From positions 62,001-126,000 of the forward strand of contig NZ_FNDH01000003.1 of the NCBI RefSeq assembly GCF_900100485.1: a stretch of DNA of 64,000 bases, written 5' to 3'. The position numbers and the translations under genes are program-made. Below, one piece after another: positions 1-64,000 of this stretch; the first letter of the stretch is position 1; each line of letters begins with the position of its first letter. Below the pieces are notes generated by a model, which had not been told where the DNA came from, did no database searches, and saw nothing but the letters and a program-made list of their open reading frames with translations. This DNA is from Nitrosomonas sp. Nm132. GTDB taxonomy: Bacteria; Pseudomonadota; Gammaproteobacteria; Burkholderiales; Nitrosomonadaceae.

Positions 1-149
<149 letters not shown>

Positions 150-186
150 TCACCTTATAAAAATGAGTGGTTACAAACGAAGGAGA

Positions 187-332
187 ACGTGATGATCACG
201 CAGGATTTTGATTAATAGGGAAGTTTTGTAAGGGAGTGGTGTAGTAATTCATACACCCGACTGAACAAAACCTTTCCTATTAATTAAAGGACAAGTGAGG
301 ACACGTGTCAATTTATAAAATATTCGGGCTAA
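187..332 (+). repeat. Decayed copy 1 of the 170-bp inverted-repeat element
   Basis: This stretch aligns along most of its length with the intact copy at 2600-2769. It has the CGTGAT/ATCACG palindrome, the long inner stem (TTTGATTAATAGGGAAG paired with a CTATTAATTAAA arm) and the apical GGTGTA/TACACC hairpin. It ends in a degenerate right inverted repeat (AAATATTCGGGCTAA). The left terminal repeat is not recognisable, so this copy looks older or truncated. It fills most of the 257-bp gap between lpdA and nagZ, in which I see nothing else. Confidence 0.8.
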
Positions 333-403
333 AATAGATCCTTTCAGCAACAACGCCTTCCAAACAAGTAATCTATCAGGGATAGTATTTCAGGTTGATT
401 CAA

Positions 404-1450
404 TTAAAATGACAGTTCCTGATTGCCTACCCCGATTTCACTGATTTCCCTGACAGCCTGAACGAAATATGCAGCTTCGTGTAGCTTTATCATTGATTGC
501 GCATGGCGCCGTCCACGCATATGCGCTAGCCGCGCAAGACTCACAGCGGGAATCTCCCATTGCAATGTTTCCAGCAATTGGTCGGCAGATTGGAAATCAT
601 TGCATACCAATACCATGTCACAACCTGCTTGTAATGCTGCCCGGGCACGCTCAGTGATGTTGCCATAGCCAGCGGTACCTTGCATGCTCAAATCATCACT
701 AAAGATACAACCATCAAATCCCAATTCATTTCGTAAAATATTTTTCAGCCAGAAGCTGGAGAATCCGGCAGGATACCCATCCATTTTAGGATAAATCACA
801 TGTGCCGCCATAATCCCTGCCAAGCCAAAATTGATCATCTGACGAAATGGAATCAGATCATCCATCTCGATATCGGCATAAGTGCGATCATCCATGGCTA
901 TTTCAAAATGCGTATCTGCCTGAATATGCCCATGCCCGGGAAAATGCTTGCCTACTGCAGCCATTCCGCCTGATTTCAAGCCCAGCATTAAACTATGCGC
1001 TAGTTCTGCAATCGCCTGGGGGGTGCGATGGAAAGCACGGTCACCAATCACACTACTTTGCCCATAATCGATATCAAGCACGGGAGTAAAGCTCAAATCA
1101 ACACCGCAAGTGGACAACTCCGCCGCCAATACATAACCGGTTTGCTTGGCCAGATGGCGTGCCTGGTGAGGATGCCTGTCCCATATCTTACCTAATTCGC
1201 GCATCGCCGGTAATGGCGTAAAATCTTTACGAAAACGTTGTACCCTGCCACCTTCATGATCCACGGCAACGAGTAAAGGTGGATTTCTGAGTGCGTGGAT
1301 CTCAGCAGTCAATGCTGTCAACTGTTCACACGACTCATAATTGCGGGTAAACAAGATGATGCCTCCTGTAAGGGGATGGCGTAACCTTGCTTTATCTTCG
1401 ACTGATAACTGGGTACTCACGATATCGAGCATCACCGGACCCAGCGACAT
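404..1450 (-). CDS. nagZ: Beta-N-acetylhexosaminidase (peptidoglycan recycling)
   Basis: This is a glycoside hydrolase family 3 enzyme of 348 residues, the usual length for one-domain cytoplasmic NagZ. It releases GlcNAc from GlcNAc-anhydroMurNAc-peptides that come from cell wall turnover. The family signature KHFPGHG lies at residues 168-174. The nucleophile region FSDDLSM places the catalytic aspartate at 252, and D179/H181 in the mobile loop ([10 protein letters not shown]) supply the general acid/base dyad. I chose the ATG at 1450 because it overlaps the acpS stop codon as TGATG. A GTG three bases upstream is also possible. It is the last gene of the pdxJ-acpS-nagZ unit, with translational coupling to acpS. 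Confidence 0.95.
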
Positions 1451-1830
1451 CACGCCTTCTCCAGAATCACAAAAGCACTGGCTAGATTGAGTTCATCGCT
1501 AAGGGAAAGATGGTGGCTAATAATTCCCTCACGCCTGATCAACTCGGCTAAATCAGGATGAAACTGGAAATACGGTTTACCAAGAGAAGTATGAGCAACA
1601 GTGATATTGTTTAACGTTACAGGAGAGCGTAGGCCAGTACCCATTGCTTTGGAAAGAGCCTCTTTGGCCGCAAAGCGCTTAGCTAAAAATATAGCTGGTT
1701 TAGCATCCTTGATGTAATCAGACCATTCGTGCTCTGCTAACAATCTACGCGCGAAACGTTCGCCATATTTTTCAAGTGACTGCGCAATACGGGAAAGATC
1801 GACGATATCTGTGCCGATTCCATAAATCAT
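1450..1830 (-). CDS. acpS: Holo-[acyl-carrier-protein] synthase
   Basis: This 126-residue protein matches AcpS, which transfers 4'-phosphopantetheine from CoA to the serine of apo-ACP and so activates fatty acid synthesis. The N-terminal metal-binding motif [12 protein letters not shown] is at residues 4-15, with the Mg2+-ligating Asp at 8. The second signature [14 protein letters not shown] sits around residues 53-66 and carries the catalytic Glu. The ATG overlaps the pdxJ stop by four bases (ATGA), and its stop overlaps the start of nagZ, so the three genes form a tightly coupled operon. The pdxJ-acpS pair is a conserved arrangement in proteobacteria. Confidence 0.96.
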
Positions 1831-2552
1831 TGACTCGCTTCCAGCATGAGTTGCTTCATCTCTCTAACCGCTTGCGCTAATCCAACGAATAATGCATGTG
1901 ACACAATAGCATGTCCGATATTGAGTTCAGAAAGACCTTGTATCGCTGCAATGGGCCGGGTATTTTGGTAATGCAGTCCATGACCAGCGTTAACTTTTAA
2001 TCCTTGACTGATACCACAGGTAACGGCTGTGCAAATTTTTTCCAGCTCGCATTGTTGCGCATTGTCATCTTTGGCATCTGCATAATGGCCTGTATGAATC
2101 TCAATGACTGGTGCGCCTGCTCTGGCTGCCGCATCTATTTGCCGGCGTTCGGCATCGATGAACAACGATACGCGGATACCGGCGTCTGCCAACTTGCTAC
2201 AGGCCTGTTTTACTTGTTCGAAATGCCGCACCACGTCCAGTCCTCCTTCCGTAGTCAATTCCTCACGACGCTCTGGAACGAGACATACATCATGAGGTTT
2301 GATGCGACACGCAAAGGCAATCATCTCTTCAGTCACTGCGCTTTCCAGATTCATCCGGGTTTGAAGTCGCTCGCGCAAAATTTCCACATCCCGGTCCTGG
2401 ATATGCCTGCGATCCTCACGCAAGTGGAGCGTGATGGCATCTGCGCCGGCAGACTCAGCAATTAGTGCTGCTTCAACTGGATCCGGATAAGTCGTTCCCC
2501 GTGCCTGGCGCAGTGTCGCGACATGATCAATATTGACACCCAAAGCAATCAT
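1827..2552 (-). CDS. pdxJ: Pyridoxine 5'-phosphate synthase
   Basis: The 241-residue product is PdxJ, a TIM-barrel enzyme that condenses 1-deoxyxylulose 5-phosphate with 3-amino-2-oxopropyl phosphate to give pyridoxine 5'-phosphate in the DXP-dependent vitamin B6 pathway. It starts with the family hallmark [17 protein letters not shown] and contains [12 protein letters not shown] near residues 40-51. The ATG at 2552 follows an AAAGG Shine-Dalgarno sequence about 12 bases upstream. In related genomes recO normally precedes pdxJ and follows era. Here the intervening sequence is only a repeat element, so pdxJ must be transcribed from within or across that element. Confidence 0.96.
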
Positions 2553-2599
2553 GATGGTTATCTACCTTTAAGCAAAATCAAAGAAACTCTTCATCCACT

Positions 2600-2769
2600 T
2601 TAACCCGAATATTTCATAAATTCGCGTGATCATCACGCAGGATTTTGATTAATAGGGAAGTTTTGAGAAAGAGGGGTGTAGTGACTCATACACCCGACTG
2701 AGCAAAATCTTTCTTATTAATCAAAAGACAAGTGAGGGCACGTGCCAATTTATGAAATATTTGGGTTAA
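2600..2769 (+). repeat. Intact copy 2 of the 170-bp MITE-like inverted-repeat element
   Basis: The element is bounded by 23-bp terminal inverted repeats (2600-2622 and 2747-2769, one mismatch) that begin TTAACCCGAATATTTCATAA. Inside are a GCGTGAT-C-ATCACGC palindrome (2624-2638), a GGCACGTGCC palindrome (2737-2746), a long inner stem pairing 2644-2665 with 2703-2725, and an apical hairpin GGGTGTA/TACACCC (2674-2680 with 2689-2695). There is no open reading frame of note. Both ends carry TTAA, so the true element could be CCCGAAT...ATTTGGG with a TTAA target duplication. It lies between era and pdxJ, where recO is normally found. Confidence 0.88.
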
Positions 2770-2821
2770 GCCGAACTCATGAGTGCATTGTTCTATTATT
2801 AGACATTTAGATTCTTCAATC

Positions 2822-3712
2822 TTATTCATATCCCAGGTTCTTTAAAGTACTGACATCATCTGCCCAGCCACTTTTCACCTTGACCCAGACTTCGAGATAT
2901 ACTTTGCTACCAAACAATTTTTCCATATCTTTACGCGCTTGGGTAGCAACTATTTTAATTTTTTCGCCATTCTTACCTATCACGATAGCTTTCTGGCTTG
3001 CCTTCTCGACTAGAATACAGGCAAAAATTCGCCGTAGATTTCCTTCTACTGTAAATTGGTCTATGAGTACACTGGTCGAGTAAGGAATTTCCTCGCCCAT
3101 CAAACGAAATAATTTCTCACGAATCATCTCGGCAGCAAGAAAACGCTCACTTCGATCACTAATCTCATCTTTGTCAAACAAAGGCGGACTTTCTGGCAAA
3201 TAAGGCCGGACCACATCGATTAATTCAGTCAGTTGCACGGCCTTCGCTGCGCTGACGGGAACGATGCCAGCAAAGCTAAATTTTTTAGCCATACTCTCCA
3301 TGAATGGGAGTAGTTGGGTTTTATTCTCTAATTGATCTATTTTGTTAATTACAAGAATAACGGGTCTGTCAACAGGCACCAGCTCTAGTACCTTCTCATC
3401 ACGTTCATCAAAACGTATCGCTTCGATCACGAACAGCACGATATCGACTTCCCGCATGCTTTGAATGACTGTCCGGTTCATCATATGATTAAGCTGATTA
3501 CTATAGCGAGTTTGAAAACCTGGTGTATCAACGAAAATAAATTGAGATTGCTCATCCGTCAAAATACCATTGATACGATGCCGTGTTGTCTGCGCTTTTT
3601 TAGAGGTAATACTGATTTTTTGTTGGATCAAATGGTTAAGTAAAGTAGATTTACCGACATTAGGACGTCCAACAATGGCAACATAACCCGTTCTGAAATG
3701 AGGGGAATCCAT
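2822..3712 (-). CDS. era: GTPase Era, 16S rRNA-binding ribosome assembly factor
   Basis: This 296-residue protein is Era, which binds the 3' end of 16S rRNA and acts in 30S subunit maturation at the inner face of the membrane. The P-loop [15 protein letters not shown] is at residues 15-29, switch II DTPGF near 62-66 and NKID around 123-126. A C-terminal KH domain carries the motif [12 protein letters not shown]. Length and domain order are normal. It is separated from rnc by 196 bases without a gene, which is longer than in many relatives where rnc and era overlap. Downstream, the expected recO is missing (see findings). Confidence 0.97.
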
Positions 3713-63052: not shown

Positions 63053-63355
63053 ATGGCAAAGCGCAAGAAAAGTAAATTGGAGTTAACCCACCCGAAGGCG
63101 GCGGGGATTGATATTGGTTCTGCGAGCCATTTTGTGGCGGCACCGCCGGATCGGGATAACGAGCCGGTACGGGAATTCAAGAGTTTCACCGCAGACCTGA
63201 ATGGTTTGGCGGACTGGTTGGAGGCCTGTGAAATCGACACTGTGGCAATGGAATCGACGGGGATATACTGGATTCCGCTGTATGAACTTCTGGAGTCGCG
63301 GGGGCTGACTGTGTACCTGGTGAATGCGTGGCACGTTAACCCGAATATTTCATAA
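63053..63355 (+). pseudogene. IS110-family transposase, cut after about 95 residues
   Basis: The ATG at 63053 follows GGAGG. The frame reads the DEDD transposase start: AGIDIGSASHFVAAPPDRDN with the first catalytic Asp, and VAMESTGIYWIPLYELLESR with the Glu. It then reads VYLVNAWHV, after which family members normally continue with K-N/D-x-PGRKTDVxD. Here the frame runs into the 170-bp element at 63336 and stops after PNIS. The rest of the transposase is not found on the other side of the element, so it is dead. Confidence 0.88.
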
Positions 63356-63505
63356 ACTGGCACGTGTCCTCACTTACCTTTTGATTAATAAGAAAGATTT
63401 TGCTCAGTCGAGTGTATGAATCACTACACTCCTCCTTCTCAAAACTTCCCTATTAATCTAAATCCTGCGTGATCATCACGCGAATTTATGAAATATTCGG
63501 GTTAA
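63336..63505 (-). repeat. Intact copy 3 of the 170-bp MITE-like element (inverted)
   Basis: This copy has the same length as copy 2 and lies in the opposite orientation. Its terminal repeats begin TTAACCCGAATATTTCATAA (63336 on) and end TTATGAAATATTCGGGTTAA at 63505. By eye it differs from copy 2 at about 10 of 170 positions. In the apical hairpin a G-C pair has become A-T on both arms (GAGTGTA/TACACTC). It interrupts the IS110 transposase, so it inserted, or recombined in, after that element. Confidence 0.9.
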
Positions 63506-63530: not shown

Positions 63531-64000
63531 GTGAAATCAAAGTATTCAGAAGCGTTTATTGGACAGGCGTTAATCAAAGTATATTCTCGAGGAGACCGGA
63601 CAGTGCGATCGGTTGCGGAAGAGATGAACGTTAGTTTCCACACGGTAAAAAATTGGATGAAAAGGAAAGCTGTGGATAAGCTTGGTGTAACGTCGACAAA
63701 AGGAAAACGGCCCCAGGACTGGACTGCTGATGAACAACTGGTGGCATTGCATGAGGCCCATGGTTTGTCTGGAGAGGCCTTGTATGCGTGGTGTCGTGAG
63801 CAAGGTTTATTTGCTCATCATCTGACAAGCTGGAGAGCGGCCTTTTGTACCAACGAGAAGGCAGCGCCAGGCACTCGTGAAATTCGAACATTGAAAAACG
63901 AGAATGAGAAACTCAAGCGTGAATTAGTGCGCAAAGAGAAGGCATTGGCGGAAGCGGCAGCATTGCTGATGCTACAAAAAAGTTCCGTGCGTTCTGGGAG
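63531..64000 (+). CDS. IS3-family transposase OrfA, incomplete at window end
   Basis: A GTG at 63531 with GAAGAGGA upstream starts a frame of 156 residues that runs off the window. It reads a helix-turn-helix (RTVRSVAEEMNVSFHTVKNW), then KRPQDWTADEQLVALHEAHG and a leucine-zipper-like coiled coil (REIRTLKNENEKLKRELVRK) ending AEAAALLMLQK. That is the layout of IS3-group OrfA. At the A-run 63976-63981 the annotated frame changes to SSVRSG, while the -1 frame reads KKFRAFWE, which looks more like the family. This points to a lost base or a slippage site. Only 25 bases separate it from the 170-bp element, so its left inverted repeat is missing or not recognised. Confidence 0.8.
   Translation, partial: MKSKYSEAFIGQALIKVYSRGDRTVRSVAEEMNVSFHTVKNWMKRKAVDKLGVTSTKGKRPQDWTADEQLVALHEAHGLSGEALYAWCREQGLFAHHLTSWRAAFCTNEKAAPGTREIRTLKNENEKLKRELVRKEKALAEAAALLMLQKSSVRSG

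Follow-up and report, generated by a model that had tools for sequence, protein, structure and literature searches.

In the genome of Nitrosomonas sp. Nm132 (G000) we characterized a 162-bp element that is very probably a gene-less MITE, moved in trans by IS1380-family transposases with duplication of a YTAR target, whose interior pairing is kept on one strand. The window in which it was noticed, a 64,000-nucleotide stretch of this genome, holds two intact copies and one decayed copy (Table 1). The preliminary description had offered two readings, a MITE or a structured element; given the evidence for a MITE (identical flanks at 118 of 145 copies, uninterrupted paralogous sites, IS1380 ends) together with the evidence for a structure (covariation across genera and strand asymmetry), we take the element to be both. 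Comparison of sequences shows that the element has spread to many copies, is flanked by a duplicated target and shares its ends with IS1380, and that its pairing covaries and differs between strands. We file the element as a new family of IS1380-dependent MITEs, made an unusual variant by its strand-specific, covarying interior.

Copies and target sites in the Nitrosomonas genome

Table 1 Coordinates of the element and its target sites in the window.
Feature	Position	Strand	Basis or remark
Decayed copy without left terminal repeat	187..328	+	cmsearch 106 bits for 187-306, model 21-140; blastn 188-328
CTAA at right end of decayed copy	329..332		Likely surviving target duplication
Left target duplication TTAA	2600..2603		Sequence; identical 4-bp flanks in 118/145 copies
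Intact 162-bp element	2604..2765	+ (strongly folding strand)	cmsearch 177.2 bits, model 1-162
Left terminal inverted repeat, 19 bp	2604..2622	+	First 17 bp equal IS1380 end in E. acroporae (L249)
Right terminal inverted repeat	2747..2765	-	One mismatch versus left, a G-U pair on + strand
Right target duplication TTAA	2766..2769		Sequence
Target duplication TTAA	63336..63339		Sequence
Intact 162-bp element, opposite orientation	63340..63501	-	cmsearch 172.6 bits
Target duplication TTAA	63502..63505		Sequence

Both intact units lie where the preliminary description had placed them (2600-2769 on the plus strand, and 63336-63505 with the element on the minus strand), each with 162 bp between two copies of TTAA. 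The decayed third copy that it listed is also real, being matched by both the model and blastn, but lacks the left terminal repeat. The 23-bp terminal inverted repeat described there is indeed a repeat, but of a different length: it consists of a 19-bp repeat plus the 4-bp target duplication. The termini of the element itself are CCCG...CGGG, inside YTAR duplications. As had been stated, the unit has no coding capacity (the longest stop-free stretch is 37-49 codons in the four listed units of 169-170 bp) and nearly all of it can fold; the copy at 2604..2765 folds at -79.9 kcal/mol, with a z-score of -12.5 against shuffles, and the copy at 63336-63505 has a z-score of -12.3.

Searches of the window returned no tRNA and 0 Rfam matches at gathering score, and the plasmid and phage collections contained no match to the window copy. 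One weak Rfam match within window 1-3000 falls outside the element. Among 20 relatives, the best Rfam score was 31.5 bits against a cut-off of 195, from miRNA-precursor models; we took these weak matches to be chance hairpin matches.

A genome-wide search for the unit raised the count from three to about 150 copies. The end motif CCCGAATATTTCATAAA, allowing up to two mismatches, occurs 201+194 times in the 3.2-Mb genome, compared with 0+1 for a reversed control pattern; together with the fold z-scores, these numbers exclude a chance origin. The covariance model was run on 150 of 1325 first-look candidates and matched 150/150, so that there are at least 150 matches, a floor with respect to weak copies. 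We extracted 145 unique full copies, of which 126 are exactly 162 bp long; the extraction also gave nine 'partial' matches, two of them pieces cut by a locus edge.

The 4-bp flanks are identical in 118 of the 145 copies, and YTAR is found on both sides in 122. The preliminary description had seen in the terminal TTAA a hint of a 4-bp target duplication; the duplication holds, and TTAA itself is only the commonest case of the YTAR consensus, with identical flank pairs of TTAA (67), CTAG (23), TTAG (16), CTAA (4) and a few others. CTAT, CTAC, GTAA and ATAA were also found duplicated. Because TTAG, CTAA, CTAT, CTAC and GTAA are not palindromic, the flanks must be direct repeats, as target duplication demands. 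As the preliminary description had proposed, we looked for empty sites, matching the rejoined flanks of 144 copies to the loci available. Among the matches listed, two are clean uninterrupted paralogues with a single TTAA (C128_109020 versus L348, and C73_17387 versus L170), and the rest are diverged, gapped or self-matches.

Removal of the element rejoins an open frame of at least 200 codons at 3 of the 130 copies with enough flank, and one of at least 100 codons at 13 of them. One of the three is the copy at 63336, which has an IS110 transposase fragment (PF01548) on one side and a transposase HTH gene (PF01527) on the other; since two different genes flank it, no single gene is interrupted there. 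With these flanking genes, at window positions 63101-63337 and 63531-63998, the second copy is part of a mobile-element cluster.

Ends shared with IS1380-family insertion sequences

The search for an IS with the element's ends, also proposed in the preliminary description, led to two Endozoicomonas genomes in which IS1380 loci share those ends. In Endozoicomonas ascidiicola (G434), YTAR-CCCGGATATTTCATAAA stands on one side of a full-length IS1380 transposase gene (L246, PF13701 E=1.1e-136) and likewise on one side at L270. Three further places where PF13701 matches in part (L258/L274, a single place, L262 and L268) have it on both sides. A MITE of the same genome, L065, has the ends CCCGGATATTTCATAAA and CCCGAATATTTCATAAA. 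In E. acroporae, a truncated IS1380 gene (L249) adjoins the exact 17-mer of the MITE end. The NCBIfam model NF033539 places L246 (E=3.8e-107), L127 (2.5e-124) and L245 (1.9e-118) above its 180-bit cut-off, and the truncated L249 below it at 127.9 bits.

Other lineages have other ends. In family f52, the IS at L245, about 1.7 kb long with CTAG at both ends, terminates in ATTATTCAT and ACTATTCAT, and most f52 MITEs have one or the other of these ends. Similarly, TTGCATGAA is found in the MITEs L032, L033, L035, L037 and L038 and in the same-genus IS ends L139 and L143. Judged from these loci, MITE and IS1380 ends vary together by lineage.

The Nitrosomonas genome itself contains, by PF13701 profile search, one full-length IS1380 gene and many fragments. 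The full-length gene is flanked by TTAG-CCCCAATATTGCACGAA and CTAG-CCAGAATATTGCACGAG, and other fragments terminate in CCTGAACATTGCATAAA or CCTGAACTTTGCATAAA. These ends are identical to the MITE end at 12-14 of 17 bases, and we found no IS1380 with exactly matching ends in this genome. Since several of the transposase fragments border on contig ends, the assembly may lack an intact partner. Among ten carrier genomes searched with PF13701, three (G448, G437 and G268) gave no match. Another carrier, G191 of family f52, has 46 matches, of which at least 11 score identically, and has likely seen a recent IS1380 burst.

The likeness to IS1380 elements lies in the terminal repeats, which are equal or close, and in the YTAR flanks. 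In contrast, IS1380 ISs (NF033539/PF13701) carry a transposase gene, and a blastn comparison of 62 element cores with 35 IS1380 loci gave 8 short matches of 15-23 bp and no shared interior. The strongest of these (21 bp, E=3e-5) sits in the extra insert of a long copy, L240, and was rejected as a sign of common interior sequence; there, 21 bp match L260 exactly, and the insert may be another repeat.

The link to IS1380 came from profile searches; by eye, no IS1380 transposase was recognized among the ORFs beside 17-mer matches. A scan for the 17-mer found at least 68 stretches, and on our own estimate about 30 chance matches would be expected in the collection searched; given these chance matches, and that the matches listed are part of the whole, we used only those behind YTAR or with paired ends. 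The exact 17-mer CCCGAATATTTCATAAA behind YTAR also occurs in other phyla (L059-L126, for example in Desulfobacterales), where some instances precede sequence resembling an IS1380 left end. The IS1380 end thus seems to be widely conserved.

From these matches we infer that the IS1380 family is the partner of the MITE and predict movement in trans. IS1380-family transposases would recognise the 17-19-bp ends of the element, and insertion would duplicate the 4-bp YTAR target. IS701 also has YTAR as its target, and the word YTAR occurs in two papers on IS711. That the element is a MITE of such a family (IS701 or the IS5-type IS711) rather than of IS1380 is nevertheless highly improbable: within the same genomes, the ends beside IS1380 transposases match the MITE ends, in an IS search that covered IS1380 only. 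The available text of two IS1380 papers (PMC3281130, PMC10813416) contains no statement on YTAR.

Covariation and strand asymmetry of the fold

We aligned 42 diverged copies with MAFFT, chosen by hand and with borders taken mostly from the model. In the RNAalifold consensus 92.9% of cells are paired, and in helix 1, over the 42 sequences, 96.9%. The two arms are paired with each other, left to right, with internal loops that recur, and the apical hairpin sits on an inner stem that varies; one consensus-structure analysis was made after dropping four copies longer than 165 bp. Arms that each pair with themselves as a palindrome, as in the preliminary description, are therefore not a feature of the family.

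In this alignment, 45 of the 57 pairs show changes on both sides. There are 398 double-change cells, compared with 126.4 in shuffles and 39-99 in slid controls, and 0 of 500 shuffles reach that number; the 57-pair structure was derived from the same plus-strand alignment on which the double changes were counted. The covariation that the preliminary description had suggested looking for is thus found, with support that comes from other genera. Within the Nitrosomonas genome we counted 6 double-change cells where 3.2 would be expected, no clear enrichment. The compensatory change in the apical stem that had first drawn attention, GGGTGTA/TACACCC to GAGTGTA/TACACTC, is real, with both halves in 2 of 126 copies and a single half in others, but taken alone it is not significant as a sign of a maintained fold. 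Unpaired core columns are not more conserved than paired ones (0.717 versus 0.709).

The fold is also asymmetric between strands. All 48 of the 48 Nitrosomonas copies tested, a closely related and therefore non-independent set, have their more stable fold on the plus strand (mean -72.7 versus -59.7 kcal/mol), as do 61 of 61 diverged copies (mean -78.4 versus -58.4 kcal/mol), so that the same strand is the more stable in all 109. The diverged copies represent 61 of 62 sources, as L241 and L211 are one locus; the rearranged L034 and L111 were excluded, and so were eight loci that duplicate included places. On the 42-copy alignment, RNAalifold gives -71.6 on the plus strand and -29.3 on the minus strand.

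Mismatched pairs show the same asymmetry. A strand-neutral self-alignment of 27 cluster representatives counts 137 GU and 51 AC pairs in the core, with GU exceeding AC in 23 representatives, falling short in 1 and tying in 3. At the 38 pairs supported by alternative Watson-Crick pairs there are 223 GU and 34 AC, and 28 of their columns lean to GU, 2 to AC and 8 tie; many copies and most borders come from a model trained on the plus strand, which may favour GU-rich finds.

These data bear on whether selection on the fold is needed at all. In an ordinary foldback MITE, the palindrome would be kept by template switching during replication (quasi-palindrome correction). The foldback shape and the near-perfect terminal repeats fit such a process, as do the neutral-looking changes within the genome and a 48-bp form (G000:C73:33173) whose two terminal repeats have changed in complementary fashion at the same place, the outcome expected of arm-to-arm template switching. 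Correction of one arm by the other, however, gives Watson-Crick pairs and should erase internal loops, whereas in the 42 copies the loops are found repeatedly at the same columns; nor does it predict the excess of GU over AC in pairs and columns, or that all 109 copies are more stable on the same strand. We therefore regard this explanation as unlikely.

Inserted copies behave differently. Within the Nitrosomonas genome, mismatches are evenly spread (GU 60, AC 49, other 49), also among singletons (GU 12, AC 17, other 12), counted in those copies whose length is exactly 162 bp (126 of 145) and at the 48 pairs common to both strands' folds. Relative to tandem neighbour genes the element has no preferred orientation, with 32 copies running with the genes and 25 against (57 of the 145 copies, by crude ORF calls). 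On our reading, the pairing constraint acts on lineages that keep moving and not on inserted copies. Given a seemingly random orientation and no GU bias inside this genome, the fold seems to be maintained because it serves the spread of the element itself, in the form of RNA or of single-stranded DNA; a strand constraint that tolerates GU is compatible with RNA and also with single-stranded DNA. The fold, in read-through RNA or in single-stranded DNA during replication, would help the element to spread, and single inserted copies would then decay neutrally.

A structured RNA or cis-element that serves the host as a terminator, mRNA stabiliser or regulator, and is repeated by happenstance, could likewise have a strong strand-specific fold, and the copies do lie mostly outside long genes, one of the three in long rejoined frames joining two genes. 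We consider this very unlikely, because the element ignores the direction of tandem genes, changes after insertion ignore the fold and the distribution is patchy (15 of 300 genomes of the order). In addition, the window copy has no sigma-70-like site that we could find and a single terminator-like site, on the strand that folds weakly.

The usual view of bacterial MITEs is that they are leftovers of internal deletion, with the hairpin a by-product of inverted ends. In contrast, as far as the copies compared here tell, an interior of about 125 bp and nearly constant length is common to the elements of Beta- and Gammaproteobacteria and is unlike the IS1380 loci examined; its pairing covaries and is strand-specific, yet the Nitrosomonas copies decay as if neutral. 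Tentatively, the element may be a selfish mobile folded nucleic acid, with a strand-specific core of about 125 nt whose folding is part of its copying or spread and with ends retuned to each host's IS1380. If true, this would make it, among DNA transposons, a bacterial counterpart of SINEs. That the fold serves the parasite's spread is a testable claim, and two carriers, Hydrogenovibrio halophilus DSM 15072 and E. acroporae, the latter with an IS1380 locus with the exact end, make the element open to experiment.

Distribution, known repeat families and small forms

Outside the Nitrosomonas genome the element is scattered, as searches of related genomes showed (the first three of the following counts include G000). 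A DNA search matched 6 of 41 relatives; at the level of the order, 15 of 300 genomes and 10 of 134 genera matched; and in a phylum sample the covariance model found the unit of about 160 bp in 40 of 398 genomes and 17 of 212 genera, with 29 of the 40 carriers belonging to the one family f52. Matches were also present in 12 of 17 genomes reached through chosen loci. The model gave 67 matches in H. halophilus DSM 15072 (at least 38 distinct places among the matches listed), 41 in E. acroporae (the listed ones cover at least 18 different places) and 54 in a MAG of the Ectothiorhodospiraceae, counts that may include second-strand matches of one element. Nitrosospira sp. NpAV is a further cultured carrier. 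Most listed matches cover model positions 1-162. Longer relatives, about 197-217 bp in size, form a second class with an extra interior insert (L229, L233, L237 and L240, from four different genomes). A record titled Salinisphaera sp. G21_0 (L070/G443) contains copies much like those of Endozoicomonas, and its label may be wrong.

Our literature search, which covered subscription papers poorly, found no description of the element, a weak negative. Several known families resemble it in part, and the comparisons rest on the portions of the cited papers available to us. Correia/NEMIS repeats of Neisseria are likewise short and palindromic, with a 24-bp terminal repeat and a target duplication, and the text available does not mention covariation across classes; they have TA at their termini (PMC2229807), and we set apart the Correia/ERIC/RUP type by this description, given the CCCG...CGGG termini of our element within YTAR. 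YPAL/RU-2 of Yersinia (about 167 bp, in 60 Y. pestis intergenic regions) is similar in length and stem-loop fold (PMC2759123), but has internal inverted repeats, 3-26 bp duplications and an open reading frame (PMC2229807), whereas the present element has 19-bp terminal repeats and 4-bp duplications; identity was set aside on that description.

The Coxiella elements QMITE1 and QMITE2 (about 150-190 and 400 bp) are MITEs with stable folds that yield small RNAs; they too were set aside by description, as their duplication sizes differ (7-11 nt in QMITE2, and 2-4 bp, of other composition, in QMITE1; PMC5896051). BOX and SPRITE of Streptococcus pneumoniae, small repeats with suspected RNA motifs (PMC10969869), are alike by description. 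MITE-like repeats tied to named IS elements are described in Thiohalocapsa (PMC10907252), in the text available.

Much smaller forms also exist. Eleven of 38-107 bp are among the loci at hand, and a 23-bp micro-form, CCCGAATATTTCATAAATTCG[C/G]G with at most one mismatch, occurs at 26 places in the Nitrosomonas genome (L157-L182; for example, G000:C39:75491-75517). The flanks of the 26 are mostly YTAR, and at 18 of them the two 4-bp flanks are identical. The 23-bp forms terminate at the point where two words come together, ATTCGCG from the left arm and ATTCGGG from the right end. So short a unit could hardly accommodate two transposase sites, and we infer that these forms are deletions made in place, by slippage of the template between the two words. 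One locus, L039, had looked like a possible IS, with a pair of ends spanning 944 bp; these proved to be two separate 23-bp micro-elements, oppositely oriented, that frame one gene of 162 codons.
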